Source: Apilactobacillus apinorum
GTDB lineage: Bacteria; Bacillota; Bacilli; Lactobacillales; Lactobacillaceae
DNA: 64,000 nucleotides
Assembly (NCBI RefSeq): GCF_001281175.1
Contig: NZ_KQ440396.1
Span: forward strand, 62,001 to 126,000
Reading direction: 5' to 3'
Under the pieces are notes generated by a model. It saw only the letters and a list, made by a program, of their open reading frames with translations. It was not told the DNA's origin and did no database searches. Positions 12,693 to 26,138 of this stretch are shown here, piece after piece. Position numbers and translations under genes: made by a program. Each line of letters opens with the position of its first letter. Positions within the stretch are counted from its first letter, which is position 1.

Positions 12693-12735
12693 AAATGATA
12701 ATATAGATGTTGCAAGTTATTTTGCAAAAAAATTT

Positions 12736-12824
12736 AGGAGTAGGGTTATATGCGTAAAGTGCTAGTGGAACGGAATGTGAACGCTAGACGAAAACTACGG
12801 TTGCGATGTATATCCCGCATTCGC
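12736..12824 (+). ncRNA. Tetrahydrofolate (THF) riboswitch aptamer upstream of folT
   Basis: The segment follows the THF-I riboswitch pattern in order: GGAGTAG at the 5' end, GCGTAAAGTG (12752-12761), a hairpin CTAGTG/CGCTAG (12762-12767 with 12782-12787) whose loop carries CGGAATGTG, then ACGAA, a CGGT element, and the 3' block GCATTCGCC. A helix GGTTATAT with TATATCC can form as the second stem. The location directly before a folate-type ECF S component is the classic genomic site. The closing helix P1 looks weak, so the exact ends are approximate. Confidence 0.8.
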
Positions 12825-12858
12825 CACAACGTTTTTATAATATCGTTTTTATAATGAT

Positions 12859-12893: not shown

Positions 12894-13439
12894 ATGAATG
12901 CTTCAACTTTATTTAGAGTTCCACGTATTAACGTTAGGGACGCATCAACAATTGCTATTTTAATGGCATTGTCATATGTATTAGGAAAATTTGGAATACA
13001 CACTCCAATCGTTGTATTTACTTTCTCATTCCTAGTTACAGCTGTAATGGCATCCATGTATGGACCAATCATTTCAGCAGTAGTAGCAGGGGTCTGTGAT
13101 GTAATGTTTACACTATTGAGTGGACAAATGTACTTACCAGGTTTTACTCTATCAGCAATGACTGCAGCATTTATCTTTGGACTATTTTTATACAAAAATG
13201 AAAAATTCAGTCCATGGAAAGCAATTGTAGCTCAATTAATTATTACCTTATTGGTAAACACATTTATGAATACTTTATTCTTAACTTTATCACCATTAAC
13301 ATCAGGATACAGTTTTAAAGTATTTATCATGACTAGACTAGTAAAACAAGTTATTACAACACCAATTCAAATGGTATTACTTGTTGTTGTTCTAGGTAAC
13401 CCAATCATGCAAAAACTAATTAAGTCTCGTTGGAAATAA
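12894..13439 (+). CDS. folT: ECF transporter S component, folate-specific (FolT)
   Basis: Membrane-embedded substrate-binding subunit of an energy-coupling factor transporter for folate; the ATPases and EcfT would be encoded elsewhere. The 181-residue protein has about six hydrophobic helices. It has the S-component features of an N-terminal alanine-rich helix (TIAILMALSYVLGKFGI) and the loop MYGPIISAVVAGVCDVMFTLL. Folate specificity is inferred mainly from the THF riboswitch upstream. The start ATG 12894 is 13 bases after AGGAG, longer than usual, and no better in-frame start exists. gpx follows 25 bases later. Confidence 0.85.
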   Translation: MNASTLFRVPRINVRDASTIAILMALSYVLGKFGIHTPIVVFTFSFLVTAVMASMYGPIISAVVAGVCDVMFTLLSGQMYLPGFTLSAMTAAFIFGLFLYKNEKFSPWKAIVAQLIITLLVNTFMNTLFLTLSPLTSGYSFKVFIMTRLVKQVITTPIQMVLLVVVLGNPIMQKLIKSRWK

Positions 13440-15371: not shown

Positions 15372-15410
15372 AAAAATACCCTTTTCAATTAATATGAAAA
15401 GGGTATTTTT
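15372..15410. terminator. Bidirectional terminator between the hypothetical gene and carB-like gene
   Basis: AAAAATACCCTTTTC (15372-15386) pairs perfectly over 15 bases with 15396-15410, with T runs on both strands. Confidence 0.92.
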
Positions 15411-17905
15411 TAATCGTTAATTTTAAATTTAATTTTAGCTCCGACTTCTTGGGAACTATTAGCATGATCAACTTTGACGTTTAATTGTTTAAATGGGAAG
15501 GTTGCTTGCATCTGAGTAGTTATATTTGAAATATCAGGCATAGAAGCCATAAGGGCGTCTATATCTAACTTCTTAGTATAGAATCTGACAAGGGCGCGTA
15601 CCCAATTAATTCCTGTCGCCCTGCTTAGGAAAATTGTTTCAGTAAGTCTTAGTGGTCTAATTCCAACATATTCTGATTCACCATTCTTATTTTGATTAAA
15701 CAAGATTTGGACTAAACCAATCCAATTAGAACTCGCGATATGCTCTTTAGATAACTGAATATCTTGTTCTAAAGTACTTTCGTCTAAAACATATGGTGTT
15801 TCATAGGCAGTTACATAATCTAAATCACTCTTATTATTGCTAATAAGCTTTTCAGTAGATATGAAGTAACTGTCTTCTTTAGTAACAAAGAAGTTCAATG
15901 CATAAGTAACATCTTTCGGTAAAACAACCCCTGTTTCTTGATCAGGTGGAAGCACTTGAACATTTAAATTGGTGTATTGTTTCAATTGTTTTAATAAGAA
16001 ATGACGATTTCCAGGAATAAATACCCTAACCGGTTTTTCCAGTTCAATTATATTAAGAATTGCTCCTAATTGAATTGGTTCAATGTATTGTTTATCACTG
16101 ATTTGAGGGCTCAATGATAAAGCATTGGGATTATTATTCATTACAATTGTCTTGTAACCAATTTTATGAAGTTGAATTAGCATCTCAGCTGTATAATAAT
16201 CAGCCGCAGTATTTGGTCCGAGTTTATTTCCCCCACGTCCAATTACCAAAGCTGTCTTTTCAGATTCTCGATGGGATTCGTTTTCAACTTCATAACTACT
16301 GTAAAACGATCTAATATTTTGATCAAATTCACCAGCTGAAGGTTCAATTGTTTTATAAGTTGGATATTCATTTTCAGCATGATATAAAGCTCTAACTGAT
16401 TCAATTGGTTCTTGCCAAGTTTCAGCCATCATACCATCACCAAAGCCAAAGTCATGTGCTACTTCGATAGTACTGAGTTTCATTGGTTCTTTAATGATTA
16501 ACTCTTCAACATCCAACAATGCCTTTAATTTATAGAAATAGAATTGGTTAATCTTTGTTAATTCTTCTAATTCATCAATTTGATAACCACGTCTAAGTGC
16601 TTCGATTAACACTAGTAAACGATCAGATTTAGGATGAATTAATTGACTAATCAATTCATCATTACTAATTTCTTTCATACTTGGTAATACATCTCTAGGT
16701 GAAAACTGTGAACTTCTAAGCGCTTTTAGTAACGCTTCTTCAACAGTTCTTCCCACACCAATGGTAGAACCCACAGATTTCATTTTTGTACCTAAATGCT
16801 GATCTGCTTCTCGAATATTATCAAAAGGCCATACTGGCATTTTAACAACAACATGGTCTAATGTTGGCTCCATAATTGGGGTTAAATGATGATAGTTATT
16901 GTGCAATTTAATTTCGTTTAATGAATTGCCTAACAATAAGTTCGTACATACATAAACCAATGGATATCCTGTAGAACGTGCAGCTAATGCAGTACTACTA
17001 TTAATGATTGGATTGATTTTAGTTACGTAATAGTTCGAACCATCGTTTGTATCTAGAGCAAATTGAATATGACATGCTCCGATTATGTTTAAGTAATCCA
17101 TAATTTTGAATGTTGCTGTTCTGATATTTTGGTATTCAATATCATTTAATGTCTGAACCGGGGTGATAATCATTGAATCACCAGAATGGACTCCAACAGC
17201 ATCAATATTTTCCAAACCAGCAATTAAAATTTTAGTGTTAGTTTGATCTCTAACCCCTACTGTTTCAACTTGTTTGTATCCAACAATGCTCTTTTCAATT
17301 ACGCATACGCTGTCATCCTTAAATTCATCTTCAAGTAAATCGGATAAGTCTTCAGCATTGTTACAAATGATTCTTTCAGTGCTTTCTCTTTGGTTAACTT
17401 TTTTGATGTTAACGGGGAAACCAATATCTCTAACCACCGCAAAAGCTTCAGATTCACTTCTAATTATTTTGGAAGGAACGGCTGGTTCAGAAACACTATT
17501 AATTGCGGCTTTCATTTTATCAGGACTATTTAGAACCTTTAATGATTCCTTGGAAATACCCAATACTTTCACATTTAAATCTTCTAAAATACCTTGATTA
17601 ATTAATTCCTGAGCAACATGAACAGCCCTTAGTCCTCCTGTAATCGGAATAAGAGCGTCTGGTTGTTCTTTATTTAAAACATCAATTACGTTTTTGACAT
17701 TAATTTCTTTGATAAAAATATTAGCGGGTTGAACTTCAGAAAGAGTTAATGAAAATGGATTATTATCCATCACTAGTACTGAAATACCTAACTTTTTTAA
17801 GGCTACCATCATTTGAAATGCTGATGCATCTAGCTCAGTTTCACTACCAATTTTAGAAGGTCCCCCACCTAGAATTAATACCTTTTTTATTTCATTATCG
17901 ATCAT
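15410..17905 (-). CDS. Degenerate carbamoyl-phosphate synthetase large-subunit-like protein (pseudoenzyme)
   Basis: Homologous to CarB but 831 residues instead of about 1060. In the first synthetase half the glycine-rich ATP loop is replaced by residues 168-178 (KKVNQRESTER). The metal-ligand Glu is Lys296 and the following Arg is Ile300 in KINPIINSSTALA, although Gln281 and Asn298 remain. The oligomerisation domain is well kept (SDRLLVLIEALRRG; GEFDQNIRSFYSSYEVENES). The second half keeps a pre-ATP-grasp fold (about 550-660). It has lost most of the ATP-grasp domain and all ligands in the EVNPRASR equivalent, here GIRPLRLT (748-755), and lacks the C-terminal allosteric domain. The frame is intact, with no frameshift. 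The carA stop is 3 bases upstream and supplies its ribosome site AAGGAGA. Confidence 0.85.
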   Translation of the reverse strand: MIDNEIKKVLILGGGPSKIGSETELDASAFQMMVALKKLGISVLVMDNNPFSLTLSEVQPANIFIKEINVKNVIDVLNKEQPDALIPITGGLRAVHVAQELINQGILEDLNVKVLGISKESLKVLNSPDKMKAAINSVSEPAVPSKIIRSESEAFAVVRDIGFPVNIKKVNQRESTERIICNNAEDLSDLLEDEFKDDSVCVIEKSIVGYKQVETVGVRDQTNTKILIAGLENIDAVGVHSGDSMIITPVQTLNDIEYQNIRTATFKIMDYLNIIGACHIQFALDTNDGSNYYVTKINPIINSSTALAARSTGYPLVYVCTNLLLGNSLNEIKLHNNYHHLTPIMEPTLDHVVVKMPVWPFDNIREADQHLGTKMKSVGSTIGVGRTVEEALLKALRSSQFSPRDVLPSMKEISNDELISQLIHPKSDRLLVLIEALRRGYQIDELEELTKINQFYFYKLKALLDVEELIIKEPMKLSTIEVAHDFGFGDGMMAETWQEPIESVRALYHAENEYPTYKTIEPSAGEFDQNIRSFYSSYEVENESHRESEKTALVIGRGGNKLGPNTAADYYTAEMLIQLHKIGYKTIVMNNNPNALSLSPQISDKQYIEPIQLGAILNIIELEKPVRVFIPGNRHFLLKQLKQYTNLNVQVLPPDQETGVVLPKDVTYALNFFVTKEDSYFISTEKLISNNKSDLDYVTAYETPYVLDESTLEQDIQLSKEHIASSNWIGLVQILFNQNKNGESEYVGIRPLRLTETIFLSRATGINWVRALVRFYTKKLDIDALMASMPDISNITTQMQATFPFKQLNVKVDHANSSQEVGAKIKFKIND

Positions 17906-17908
17906 ATG

Positions 17909-18982
17909 TTATCTCCTTTGTGAGCTAACGTTTTCTAGAAATTCTTCAAATGTATCCGCACTATCCTGTGGTCCAGGACCTCCATCTGGAGAAAATTGTA
18001 CTGAAAAAGCTGGATAATCACGATGTCTAATCCCTTGTACAGTTCCATTAACTAAATCAACGTATGTGATTAATAATTGGTCATGAATAATGGACTTAGG
18101 ATCAACAGCGTATCCCTCACTTTGTGAAGCATAAATAATTTGATTAGTAATAATTTGTCGAATGGGATGATTGCTACCGTGGTGTTCACCATCTAGTTTA
18201 TAGACATTAGCACCATTGGCCAATGCAAATAATTCATGACCTAATCCCATTGAGAACATTGGAATTTCCTTTTGAACATCCTTAATCATGTCTAAAACAG
18301 AACTAGGTAAGTCTAAAGGTGATCCTGGTCCAGTAGATAAAACTACTCCATCAGGATCTAGGTCAAAAATGGCCTTGCTAGAAGTATCCCAAGGCATGAC
18401 GATAACATTACAGTCAAGGTCTGCTAACTTTCTTAAAATACCGTATTTTAGCCCAAAATCAATTAGTACAATATTGTTACCATCACCAGTGTTTGGAAAT
18501 GGTGATGTTGTAGAAACTTGCTTAACTTGTTGATTGGTTAAAACAGTTGCATGTAATTGATCAAAAGCATGTTCGTCATCAATATCAACAATACTTGCCT
18601 TCATTGTTGGCTTTTTATTTAGTCTACGGGTTAATTCACGGGTATCAATTCCAGCAATTCCTGGGATGTTATGTTGTTTTAAGAAAAGATCTAAATTAAG
18701 GTTCCCTAATCGATTAGTAGAAACATTAGAATATTCCTTTACCACAACACCCTTAGTATTAGTTACAATTGCTTCAAAACTTTTGTGATTAATCCCAGTA
18801 TTACCAATTGATGGTTGGGTGAAAACGATGATTTGATTATGGTAAATTTGATTTGTTATAACTTCTTGATAGCCTAACATATTAGAATTTACAATAATTT
18901 CACCAGTGGTGGTAGCTTCTGCACCAAAGCCTTTTCCCTTATATGATGTTCCATCTTCTAATATTAAATATCTAGTGGTCAT
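17909..18982 (-). CDS. Catalytically dead carbamoyl-phosphate synthetase small-subunit-like protein
   Basis: Homologous to CarA over its full length (357 residues): an N-terminal CPSase_sm domain (GEIIVNSNMLGYQEVIT; GIAGIDTRELTRRL) and a class I glutamine amidotransferase fold (LSTGPGSPLD; EHHGSNHPI). The triad is gone. In the nucleophile elbow, usually GICLGHQ, the sequence reads SMGLGHE with Gly246 at the Cys position. In the usual HPE motif it reads SPD, with Ser331 for His and Asp333 for Glu. It therefore cannot hydrolyse glutamine by the known mechanism. It lies 32 bases after pyrR and is translationally coupled to the carB-like gene. Purifying selection is inferred from the intact frame. 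Confidence 0.87.
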   Translation of the reverse strand: MTTRYLILEDGTSYKGKGFGAEATTTGEIIVNSNMLGYQEVITNQIYHNQIIVFTQPSIGNTGINHKSFEAIVTNTKGVVVKEYSNVSTNRLGNLNLDLFLKQHNIPGIAGIDTRELTRRLNKKPTMKASIVDIDDEHAFDQLHATVLTNQQVKQVSTTSPFPNTGDGNNIVLIDFGLKYGILRKLADLDCNVIVMPWDTSSKAIFDLDPDGVVLSTGPGSPLDLPSSVLDMIKDVQKEIPMFSMGLGHELFALANGANVYKLDGEHHGSNHPIRQIITNQIIYASQSEGYAVDPKSIIHDQLLITYVDLVNGTVQGIRHRDYPAFSVQFSPDGGPGPQDSADTFEEFLENVSSQRR

Positions 18983-19014: not shown

Positions 19015-19542
19015 TTACTTTTCATCAATTTCTACTGAATCTTGATCATCAATTTCATCTACTTGAACTTGAATGATTTCTTGTTTAGAAGTTGGAATGT
19101 TTTTACCAACAAAATCAGCTCTAATTGGTAATTCACGATGACCACGGTCAACCAAAACAGCTAAACGAATGTTATTAGGTCTTCCCAATTCAGCAATCGC
19201 TGATAAAGCTGCATTGATAGTTCTACCAGTAAATAATACGTCATCTACTAAGATGATGTTTTTATCTTTCAATGAAACTTCATTATCAGATAGGACTTCT
19301 GGTTCATTATTAGTGTGTTGGATGTCATCACGATACTTAGTAACATCAATTCCAACTACAGGAACTTCTTTGTTTTCTAATTTTTGTAAACGATTAGCGA
19401 TACGTTTAGCAAGATAAATTCCACGAGTTTTAATACCAACTAAAACTAGGTTATTTACCCCTTTATTCTTTTCGATAATTTCATAAGTAATTCTGGTTAA
19501 TGCTCTTTGCATTGCCATTTTATCTACAACTACTTTACTCAA
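19015..19542 (-). CDS. pyrR: Bifunctional pyrimidine regulator PyrR / uracil phosphoribosyltransferase
   Basis: PyrR binds pyr mRNA in response to UMP and has weak uracil phosphoribosyltransferase activity. The PRPP-binding motif is intact ([12 protein letters not shown]), as is the conserved [24 protein letters not shown] block; length 175 is normal. The start is TTG at 19542, with AGGAGG 7 bases upstream. It sits 11 bases after rluD and just before the degenerate carA-like gene. I see no anti-antiterminator leader in the 32-base gap, so it may act on other transcripts or serve the dead CarAB pair. Confidence 0.95.
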
Positions 19543-19553
19543 TACAGTTCCTC

Positions 19554-20471
19554 CTATTTAATCTTATATTTATTTCTTAATTTATTGATTGTTTGTTCAA
19601 AAATTTCAGGTAATGGTGTTTCAAAAACAAGTTGTTCATTGGTTACTGGATGAACGAAACCTAACTTTTTAGCATGTAAAAATTGGCCGTTTCCTTTGAT
19701 GGTGTTTTTAGGTCCGTATAACGGATCGCCTACTAGCGGATGACCAATGTATTTCATATGCACTCTAATTTGATGGGTTCTACCAGTTTCTAAAATGCAA
19801 GATACTAATGTATATTCTCCACCAAATCTTTCTAAGACTTTAAAATGGGTTACTGCGTTCTTACCGTCATCAACAATCCCTTGTTTCTTTCGATCTTTTT
19901 TTGATCTACCAATCGGTGCATTAATTACTCCACTATTTTCTTTTATATTTCCATGGACTAATGCAATGTATTCACGAATGTTAGACTTATCTTTCAATTG
20001 TTGTGAGAGACTTTCATGAGCATAATTATTCTTAGCAATCATCAATAAACCAGAGGTATCCTTATCAATTCGATGAACGATTCCAGGTCTATATGTACCA
20101 TTAATTGTTGATAATGGGCTATGAAATAATAGCGCATTTACTAAAGTATGATTGGGATGACCAGCTGAGGGATGAACTACCATTCCCTGAGGCTTATTCA
20201 CTACTAAAACATCATCATCTTCGTAAACAATATCTAAAGGAATATCTTCTGGTTCAACATTCATTGTTTCCGGTTCAGGTATCTCAACTGTTATTTGATC
20301 ATCAATTTTTACATCATATTTAGGTTTTTTCTTCTCACCGTTAACAAGGACAAGTCCATCTTCAATTAATGATTTTGCTCTTGCTCGGCTTAAATCCTCA
20401 ACGTTATCAGTAAGAGACTTATCTAGTCTAACGCTAGACTCTGTTACTGTATAAGTTACTGTATTACTAAT
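19554..20471 (-). CDS. rluD: RluD-family pseudouridine synthase with apparent ATT start
   Basis: Isomerises uridines in 23S rRNA. The catalytic domain is clear: [22 protein letters not shown] with the catalytic Asp, and [10 protein letters not shown]. The frame stays open upstream of the internal ATG at 20264 and encodes a normal S4 RNA-binding domain ([20 protein letters not shown], then EDGLVLVNG), so the true protein is about 305 residues. No ATG, GTG or TTG lies between the upstream stop and the S4 domain. The only plausible initiator is ATT (20471-20469), overlapping the lspA stop, 8 bases after a GG of the ribosome-site-like GGTGAT. Start is inferred. Confidence 0.85.
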
Positions 20472-20919
20472 CTAAATCACCATCTCTTAATATTGCAATG
20501 AATAGAATAACAATTCCAAAAGTGATACAAATGTCTGCAAAATTAAAAATTGGGAAATTAATAAAATCAACTTGGAACATGTCAACTACATATCCATCAA
20601 ATAATCGATTAATAAAATTACCAATAATTCCTGACAATAAAATTGTTAAACTAATTACATATAATTTTCTATCTTTTAATTTTATCATAAAGTAGATAAC
20701 CGCAACGACAGCAACAAATGTAATGATTGAAAATAACCATTGTTGTCCCTGCAAAATACTCCAAGCAGCACCACTGTTGTGAATGTTTGCAATAGATAAT
20801 ACTCCAGGGATGAATGTTCTAGCTGTATTTTCTAAAATATTCGCAGAAATCCAAATTTTAATAATTTGATCAATTCCTACCAAAGCGATAACACTTAATA
20901 TAATATACAAAATCGGCAT
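20467..20919 (-). CDS. lspA: Lipoprotein signal peptidase (signal peptidase II)
   Basis: Membrane aspartyl protease that removes signal peptides from prolipoproteins. The 150-residue protein has four hydrophobic helices and the family boxes NIHNSGAAWSILQG, GNFINRLFDGYVVDMF and NFADICITFG. The two catalytic Asp residues are in VVDM and FADI. It follows fhs by 10 bases and overlaps the start of rluD by 5 bases. Confidence 0.95.
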   Translation of the reverse strand: MPILYIILSVIALVGIDQIIKIWISANILENTARTFIPGVLSIANIHNSGAAWSILQGQQWLFSIITFVAVVAVIYFMIKLKDRKLYVISLTILLSGIIGNFINRLFDGYVVDMFQVDFINFPIFNFADICITFGIVILFIAILRDGDLD

Positions 20920-25750: not shown

Positions 25751-26138
25751 GGTGTACATTCCTGTAAGCCATGTTTTGTGCTTTATATTTAAGTCAGGCC
25801 TTAAAATATAAAGTAGTAATCATCTATCTGAGAATTAAATTCTCCCCCACACTTAGTTCAATTTCCGTGTGTGAAGCTCCCCTACCAAAGTTTGGGTTTC
25901 CCGCTCGTGGGGTTTACCGCGTTCCACCAATACCGTTTCCAATATTGTATCGTCTCTGTGGCACTTTCAGGAGTACTGAAGCATAGTAAAACCTTAGCTA
26001 TTTTCTCCGCCGTTACTACAAAGTAGTCCCCCGGCTTATTTTTTCACCGAGCACGAACACTACAAGCATCGCAGCCTGTGCGAGAGTGGACTTTCCTCAG
26101 CCAACAAAAGTTGACCGCGATTACTCAGAATGTACACC
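25751..26138 (-). ncRNA. rnpB: RNase P RNA, class B (Bacillus type)
   Basis: Catalytic RNA that matures tRNA 5' ends. Read on the minus strand: GAGGAAAGTCCACTCTCGCA (CR-I region), CTGAAAGTGCCACAGAGACG, GGAACGCGGTAAACCCC and the 3' block CAAAACATGGCTTAC are hallmark conserved pieces in correct order. The ends pair through GGTGTACATT (25751-25760) with AATGTACACC (26129-26138), the P1 helix. Total length is about 390 bases. The organisation matches class B RNAs of Firmicutes. A terminator follows on the minus strand. Confidence 0.97.

Follow-up and report, generated by a model that had tools for sequence, protein, structure and literature searches.

What can a gene pair related to carbamoyl-phosphate synthase (CPS) contribute to a cell once the residues needed for catalysis have disappeared from it? 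The question was raised by a locus of Apilactobacillus apinorum, located within a 64,000-nucleotide stretch of DNA that was analysed as a whole and is referred to here as the window. A sequence-only reading of the window had described a shortened CarB-like protein, encoded by carB', with both ATP-grasp sites disabled; the catalytic death of the neighbouring CarA' is an addition of the present analysis. We conclude with high confidence that carA'-carB' is a widespread CPS-derived pair whose catalytic sites have been lost. As to function, the reading that we favour, with confidence and doubt in equal measure, is that of an old, selected pseudo-CPS serving as a regulatory partner without catalytic activity in the control of pyrimidine supply by PyrR. 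The features of the locus are the following.

15372..15410, (-): terminator-like hairpin with a T-rich tail (16 pairs, 4 of them G-C), beginning at the final base of the carB' ORF; such hairpins come from a consensus scan only, in which 7 were found where shuffled sequences gave 3.7 on average
15410..17905, (-): carB', 831-aa CarB relative with catalytic sites lost (ORF, Pfam, residue counts, model and PDB match)
15641..15664, (-): GIRPLRLT, carB' codons 748-755, remnant of the second-site EVNPRASR (alignment, residue counts)
17018..17020, (-): codon of carB' Lys296, at the position of E. coli Glu299, a metal ligand (residue counts)
17372..17404, (-): KKVNQRESTER, carB' codons 168-178, replacing the ATP-grasp glycine-rich loop (alignment)
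17909..18982, (-): carA', 357-aa CarA relative, catalytically dead (ORF, residue comparison, model)
18245..18247, (-): codon of carA' Gly246, at the position of the E. coli catalytic Cys269 (residue counts)
18536..18577, (-): carA' residues 136-149 (D.HA.DQ....V.T), linker before the GATase domain (alignment of pseudo and canonical forms)
19015..19542, (-): pyrR, 175 aa
19554..20264, (-): rluD, conserved neighbour upstream
20467..20919, (-): lspA, conserved neighbour upstream

The order lspA-rluD-pyrR-carA'-carB', with all genes on the (-) strand in the window, recurs across Lactobacillaceae genera. The second, canonical carAB, for which the sequence-only reading had proposed a search, was located elsewhere in the same genome, where CarA and CarB (359 and 1058 aa) are encoded beside PyrB-, PyrC- and PyrD-like genes in the pyr operon. 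In another part of the window, a tetrahydrofolate riboswitch (12734-12828(+), 69.1 bits) is directly followed by the substrate-binding gene of an ECF transporter (12894-13439(+)), which suggests a folate transporter, and an RNase P RNA of bacterial class B was found at 25760-26132(-) (335.9 bits).

Active sites and predicted folds of CarB' and CarA'

The carB' gene is one 831-aa open reading frame at 15410-17905(-), as first described, and this single open frame rules out a frameshift as the cause of the short protein. Its Pfam matches comprised two pre-ATP-grasp stretches, one ATP-grasp domain (CPSase_L_D2) and one oligomerisation domain, so that the oligomerisation and pre-ATP-grasp regions are indeed preserved. 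Residues were counted, in E. coli numbering, over 98 core CarB' sequences (92 distinct, as some genome records overlap) and six distant ones; sequences shorter than 700 aa (the fragments of locus L093) and L062, which lies at a contig end, were left out. At the first ATP site, KKVNQRESTER (residues 168-178) stands where the canonical CarB of the same genome has its GGTGGG loop, and the Gly179 position within the loop was Arg in 26 of the 27 CarB' compared. Lys296 of the window's protein corresponds to the metal-binding Glu299; across the core this position was Lys (96/98) or Arg (2/98) and never Glu (0/98), and Glu299 was kept in four of the six distant forms. Arg129 and Asn283 were each retained in 0/98 core sequences and Asn301 in 20/98. 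At the second site, where the alignment places GIRPLRLT opposite EVNPRASR, Arg715 and Glu761 were deleted in 98/98, Gln829 and Asn843 were absent throughout (0/98 each) and Glu841 remained in 1/98. The replacements read from the window alone were therefore all recovered, and the disabling of both ATP-grasp sites extends across core CarB'.

The reported absence of the allosteric domain was likewise confirmed, as no counterpart of E. coli residues 935-1073 was found in the alignment of the window's CarB'. The second synthetase domain had been described as mostly deleted, but only 81 of its approximately 383 residues (E. coli 664-686 and 703-760) lack a counterpart. The rest of the domain, about 295 residues, was mostly modelled at fair to high confidence. 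With 81 residues missing and a superposition reaching E. coli residue 923, this domain is trimmed and not mostly deleted.

For CarA', the counts covered 100 core sequences (90 distinct, with overlapping genome records) and six distant ones. The position of Cys269, which was present in 24/24 canonical CarA compared, was occupied by Gly in 100/100 core and 6/6 distant CarA' (106/106), in 26/26 printed pseudo rows of one alignment and in 19/19 short-form loci of the family-wide genome sample. In the window's CarA', the changes were Cys269 to Gly, His353 to Ser, Gln273 to Glu and Ser47 to Ile. Across the core, Ser47 and His353 were retained in 0/100 each, Asn311 in 1/100 and Gln273 in 3/100, the Glu355 position being Asp in 100/100, and the glutaminase Cys-His-Glu triad is not present in CarA'. 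The pocket itself is conserved, G246, G248, H249, E250, E266, H268 and G269 being invariant in 13 sequences. His138, Asp141, Gln142 and Val147 of the linker were found in 27/27 core and 6/6 distant CarA', whereas the segment is variable in canonical CarA; residues 136-149 are a candidate contact site. When scored against curated NCBIfam cut-offs, CarA' was above both (405.6 versus 221 and 347.2 versus 307.35) and CarB' below both (525.2 versus 1027 and 502.5 versus 599).

The AlphaFold models of CarA' and CarB' had mean pLDDT values of 81.9 and 85.4. The former matched E. coli CarA (1c30_B) over 354 aligned residues (Z 43.3, rmsd 2.5) and the latter E. coli CarB (1m6v_A) over 788 aligned residues spanning E. 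coli 2-923 (Z 41.2, rmsd 3.1); as modelled, both subunits retain the CPS fold over most of their length. The loss across the core of the glutaminase nucleophile, the ATP site 1 ligands and ATP site 2 strongly supports, at the level of sequence, the earlier prediction that the pair would be unable to make carbamoyl phosphate. Given that the oligomerisation domain is retained, the assembly of a CarA'-CarB' complex, also predicted, is plausible. In comparison with CarAB (E. coli 1jdb, 1c30 and 1m6v, and the pyr-operon copy of the same genome), the pair has both subunits, the domain order, the fold and the adjacent carA-carB genes in common, whereas CarA' has lost Cys269 and His353, with Gln273 mostly replaced, and CarB' has lost ATP sites 1 and 2, the 81 domain-2 residues and the UMP-binding allosteric domain. 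Vertebrate CPS1 (5dot and 5dou among the structure matches) is similar in being a CPS with a nucleophile-less glutaminase-like domain. CPS1 depends on ammonia and its glutaminase is dead, yet its ATP sites remain functional and an effector domain is present; in contrast, CarA'B' has neither working ATP sites nor an effector domain.

A repurposed enzyme, catalysing another reaction either in its first ATP-grasp unit or in the glutaminase pocket that now contains Gly, would account for the conservation of the dead CarA' pocket, the nearly fixed Lys at position 299 of core CarB' and two first-domain residues, Gly241 and His243, that were invariant in 98/98 core and 6/6 distant CarB'. Such an enzyme would, however, have to work without the glycine-rich loop, Arg129 and Asn283, and without the second-site residues Arg715, Glu761, Gln829, Asn843 and, in all core sequences except one, Glu841, and we regard it as unlikely.

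Canonical CPS, PyrR and RluD in genomes with the pair

In many genomes, the pair is accompanied by a canonical carAB. This co-occurrence, like the conserved oligomerisation domain, would suit a modulator of the real CPS, with CarA' or CarB' swapping into or docking on canonical CarAB via that domain and, for example, tuning its use of bicarbonate. Nevertheless, full-length CarB was not found in four genomes in which the pair is present (G015, G028, G030 and G035, the last with an additional CarB match in a 263-aa frame), G015 and G028 being single-contig genomes. PyrB (aspartate carbamoyltransferase) was not found above the cut-off in 14 of 45 genomes, which include these four and 10 of the 11 g16 genomes (G030 among the ten). 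Moreover, in 15 of 71 family genomes the short form was, among the matches listed, the sole CarB-like match (E <= 1e-15). Since the pair is kept where neither full-length CarB nor PyrB was found, its function cannot generally lie in tuning a real CPS, and we give this explanation little credence. In some genomes the pair survives without its pathway of origin. On the CarA tree, the CarA' of the g16 genome G030 groups with Levilactobacillus, and we take g16 to be this genus.

The linkage to pyrR was followed in named genomes, where 209 loci were confirmed and the best 80 of them kept. In 79 of these 80, the gene immediately preceding carA' encoded PyrR; the exception, L071, has no single-frame PyrR, and the matching genome G008 shows pyrR over two frames. 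In both L034 (7284-7807, G008) and L071 (Apilactobacillus micheneri), carA'B' is open, and the split pyrR is either a real loss or a sequence error. PyrR is also the neighbour common to the pairs of Lactobacillaceae and of family f4, where the gene order was pyrR-pyrB-carA'-carB' in four of the five loci read and pyrR-SDR-carA'-carB' in the fifth. Among the observations against a PyrR partner is that in the genera g3 and g6 the adjacent pyrR was missing in 7/7 genomes examined and the pair remains beside rluD, with PyrR present elsewhere in both genomes checked. An RNA- or ribosome-related accessory factor acting with RluD, and not with PyrR, would explain this persistence of rluD after the loss of pyrR in Lactobacillaceae, but the five f4 loci, all read with PyrR, gave no RluD match, and such a factor appears highly unlikely.

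In the window's genome, we found one close PyrR (19015-19542); the other match (E 1.5e-9) is presumably a different phosphoribosyltransferase. Also against a PyrR partner, the separation of carA'-linked from unlinked PyrR on the tree was weak (70/50), and the PyrR RNA element (RF00515) had no match at the gathering score in the window, so the carA'B' operon is not visibly PyrR-attenuated. In the genome as a whole, the element had three matches, before a uracil permease gene (60.4 bits, above the gathering score of 54), and before pyrB and before pyrF, the latter followed by a phosphoribosyltransferase gene (45.7 bits each, below the gathering score). The pyrB-less G028 has two sites, before a uracil permease and a cytosine/uracil-type permease, and G030 has one before a uracil permease and another before a deoxyribosyltransferase-like gene followed by a cytosine/uracil-type permease; some of the sites in G028 and G030 score below the gathering score. 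In the f4 genome G054, the element lies just upstream of pyrR. With strict filters, none was found in G015, which keeps the pair, or in G016, G024 and G035, a further point against the PyrR reading.

Distribution, selection and age

The window's CarA' is matched at 100% by that of the named Apilactobacillus MAG L061. In each of the 15 other genomes searched within the genus, the best CarB' match was a short frame (814-844 aa), that of G001 being interrupted by a contig end. The full-length CarB at this locus that would have refuted the sequence-only reading was found in none of the 15 genomes, and an assembly error or recent loss is ruled out. The A. kunkeei locus L060 (G013) holds a second full carAB outside the pyr operon, with a CarB of 1019 aa and the Cys of CarA kept. 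At a distance of approximately 5 kb, the contig also has an OTC-like match scoring below the PyrB cut-off, and this second carAB is perhaps an arginine-type CPS.

Beyond the genus, the best 80 of the 209 loci came from Apilactobacillus, Philodulcilactobacillus, Lentilactobacillus, Secundilactobacillus, Levilactobacillus and Lactiplantibacillus, together with a few looser-named records, and the CarB' frame followed CarA' in 79 of the 80, L062 being at a contig edge. Open CarB-like frames of 643-901 aa were present in no fewer than 44 of 71 evenly drawn family genomes, and at least 25 of the 40 genera were represented, as counted by hand without the 65%-complete G100 and without G066, whose apparent short CarB was excluded as a canonical CarB split over two frames with the Cys kept in its CarA. 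The frame of 643 aa belongs to L220 (G060), with the order rluD-pyrR-carA'-carB', and its best BLAST query was a canonical CarB and not the short forms. In Secundilactobacillus similis (L093), carB' lies in four separate frames, representing a broken copy or sequencing errors. Family f4 is mixed: its CarB' is merely about 577 aa (L054, L055, L056, L222 and L223, genus g25) with a Gly-bearing CarA' partner, and full-length CarB occurs in other f4 genomes. In g25, seven genomes matched the CarB' of G039 at 93-97% and four other genomes had full-length CarB.

The dN/dS values, rough because several dS exceeded 1, were 0.011-0.044 for carA' and 0.024-0.10 for carB', in comparison to 0.086 and 0.066 for canonical carA and carB and to the yardsticks fhs (0.062-0.068) and lspA (0.122). 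Over 105 genome pairs, mean identity was 60.9% for CarA' versus 58.4% for canonical CarA, with CarA' higher in 68/105, and CarB' diverged across genera (39.7% versus 66.3% for canonical CarB). The core pseudo-CarA clade had full support on the CarA tree (100/100), which points to a vertical history of the pair. All pseudo forms fell on one side of a branch with a support of just 80/72, and a tree grouping f4 CarA' with canonical CarA gave a p-AU of 0.123, so that a separate f4 origin is not rejected; the f4 CarA' carries the same Gly and the same His/Asp/Gln/Val linker motif as the core pseudo forms. The carA'-carB' pair is old and is held by purifying selection. A decaying, functionless duplicate, as might be supposed from the fast divergence of CarB' and the four frames in S. 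similis, is refuted by the dN/dS values (0.011-0.10), the frames open in at least 25 of the 40 genera sampled and a CarA' as conserved as canonical CarA, and has next to no chance of being correct.

A possible role in PyrR-linked regulation

Our confidence in a role of the pair in PyrR-linked regulation, on which the favoured non-catalytic regulatory partner depends, is moderate. CarA' and CarB' would form a complex that makes no carbamoyl phosphate and takes a regulatory part in the response to pyrimidines that PyrR controls. The dead enzyme would read a small molecule or a partner and thereby modulate PyrR attenuation, the putative targets being the transcripts of pyrB, pyrF and the uracil/cytosine-type permeases.

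The closest known parallel comes from Lactobacillus plantarum, in which, according to the passages on the subject in PMC3582564, PyrR1 responds to pyrimidines and PyrR2 to inorganic carbon; a table in PMC7911632 lists pyrR2 as lp_1782 and pyrR1 as lp_2704. The relevant passages of these two papers and of PMC5712122 make no link between PyrR2 and carA'B', and no catalytically dead CPS pair in lactobacilli is described in the titles and abstract openings of the literature matches listed. In line with the PyrR2 system, the Lactiplantibacillus genome G285, placed next to L. herbarum on the tree, has two PyrR, one encoded in the pyr operon and the second beside carA'B'. The named loci comprise Lactiplantibacillus without L. 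plantarum itself, and we infer that the carA'-linked PyrR of this genus is probably L. plantarum PyrR2. From the work of Arsene-Ploetze in 2006, a pyrR2 deletion is said to require pyrimidines and arginine unless CO2 is high.

Inorganic carbon is one candidate for the signal that would be passed from the dead complex to PyrR, because PyrR2, probably the carA'-linked PyrR, reportedly mediates the inorganic-carbon response of L. plantarum. A more specific version, in which the emptied bicarbonate-using complex is a gauge telling PyrR the level of inorganic carbon or of the carbamoyl-phosphate precursor, is tentative and on the whole improbable. Arg303 and Arg306, which we take to be the bicarbonate-side residues of CPS, were retained in 0/98 and 77/98 core CarB', and their loss in 98/98 and 21/98 sequences weakens the case for an inorganic-carbon pocket of the usual type. 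If the gauge is real, it would supply the sensor still missing from accounts of CO2-dependent growth and of the PyrR2 phenotype in lactobacilli, and the downstream carA'B' pair could be the source of some of the effect reported for pyrR2.

With the catalytic residues gone from all three active sites and strong purifying selection nonetheless acting across many genera of lactobacilli, this CPS is an unusual pseudoenzyme. Since CarA' scores above the curated cut-offs for the small subunit of an active CPS, annotation and metabolic models may credit genomes with carbamoyl phosphate synthesis even where no further CPS was detected. For the regulation of pyrimidine supply in lactobacilli, carA'B' provides a concrete gene pair to which the reported CO2 dependence may be related.
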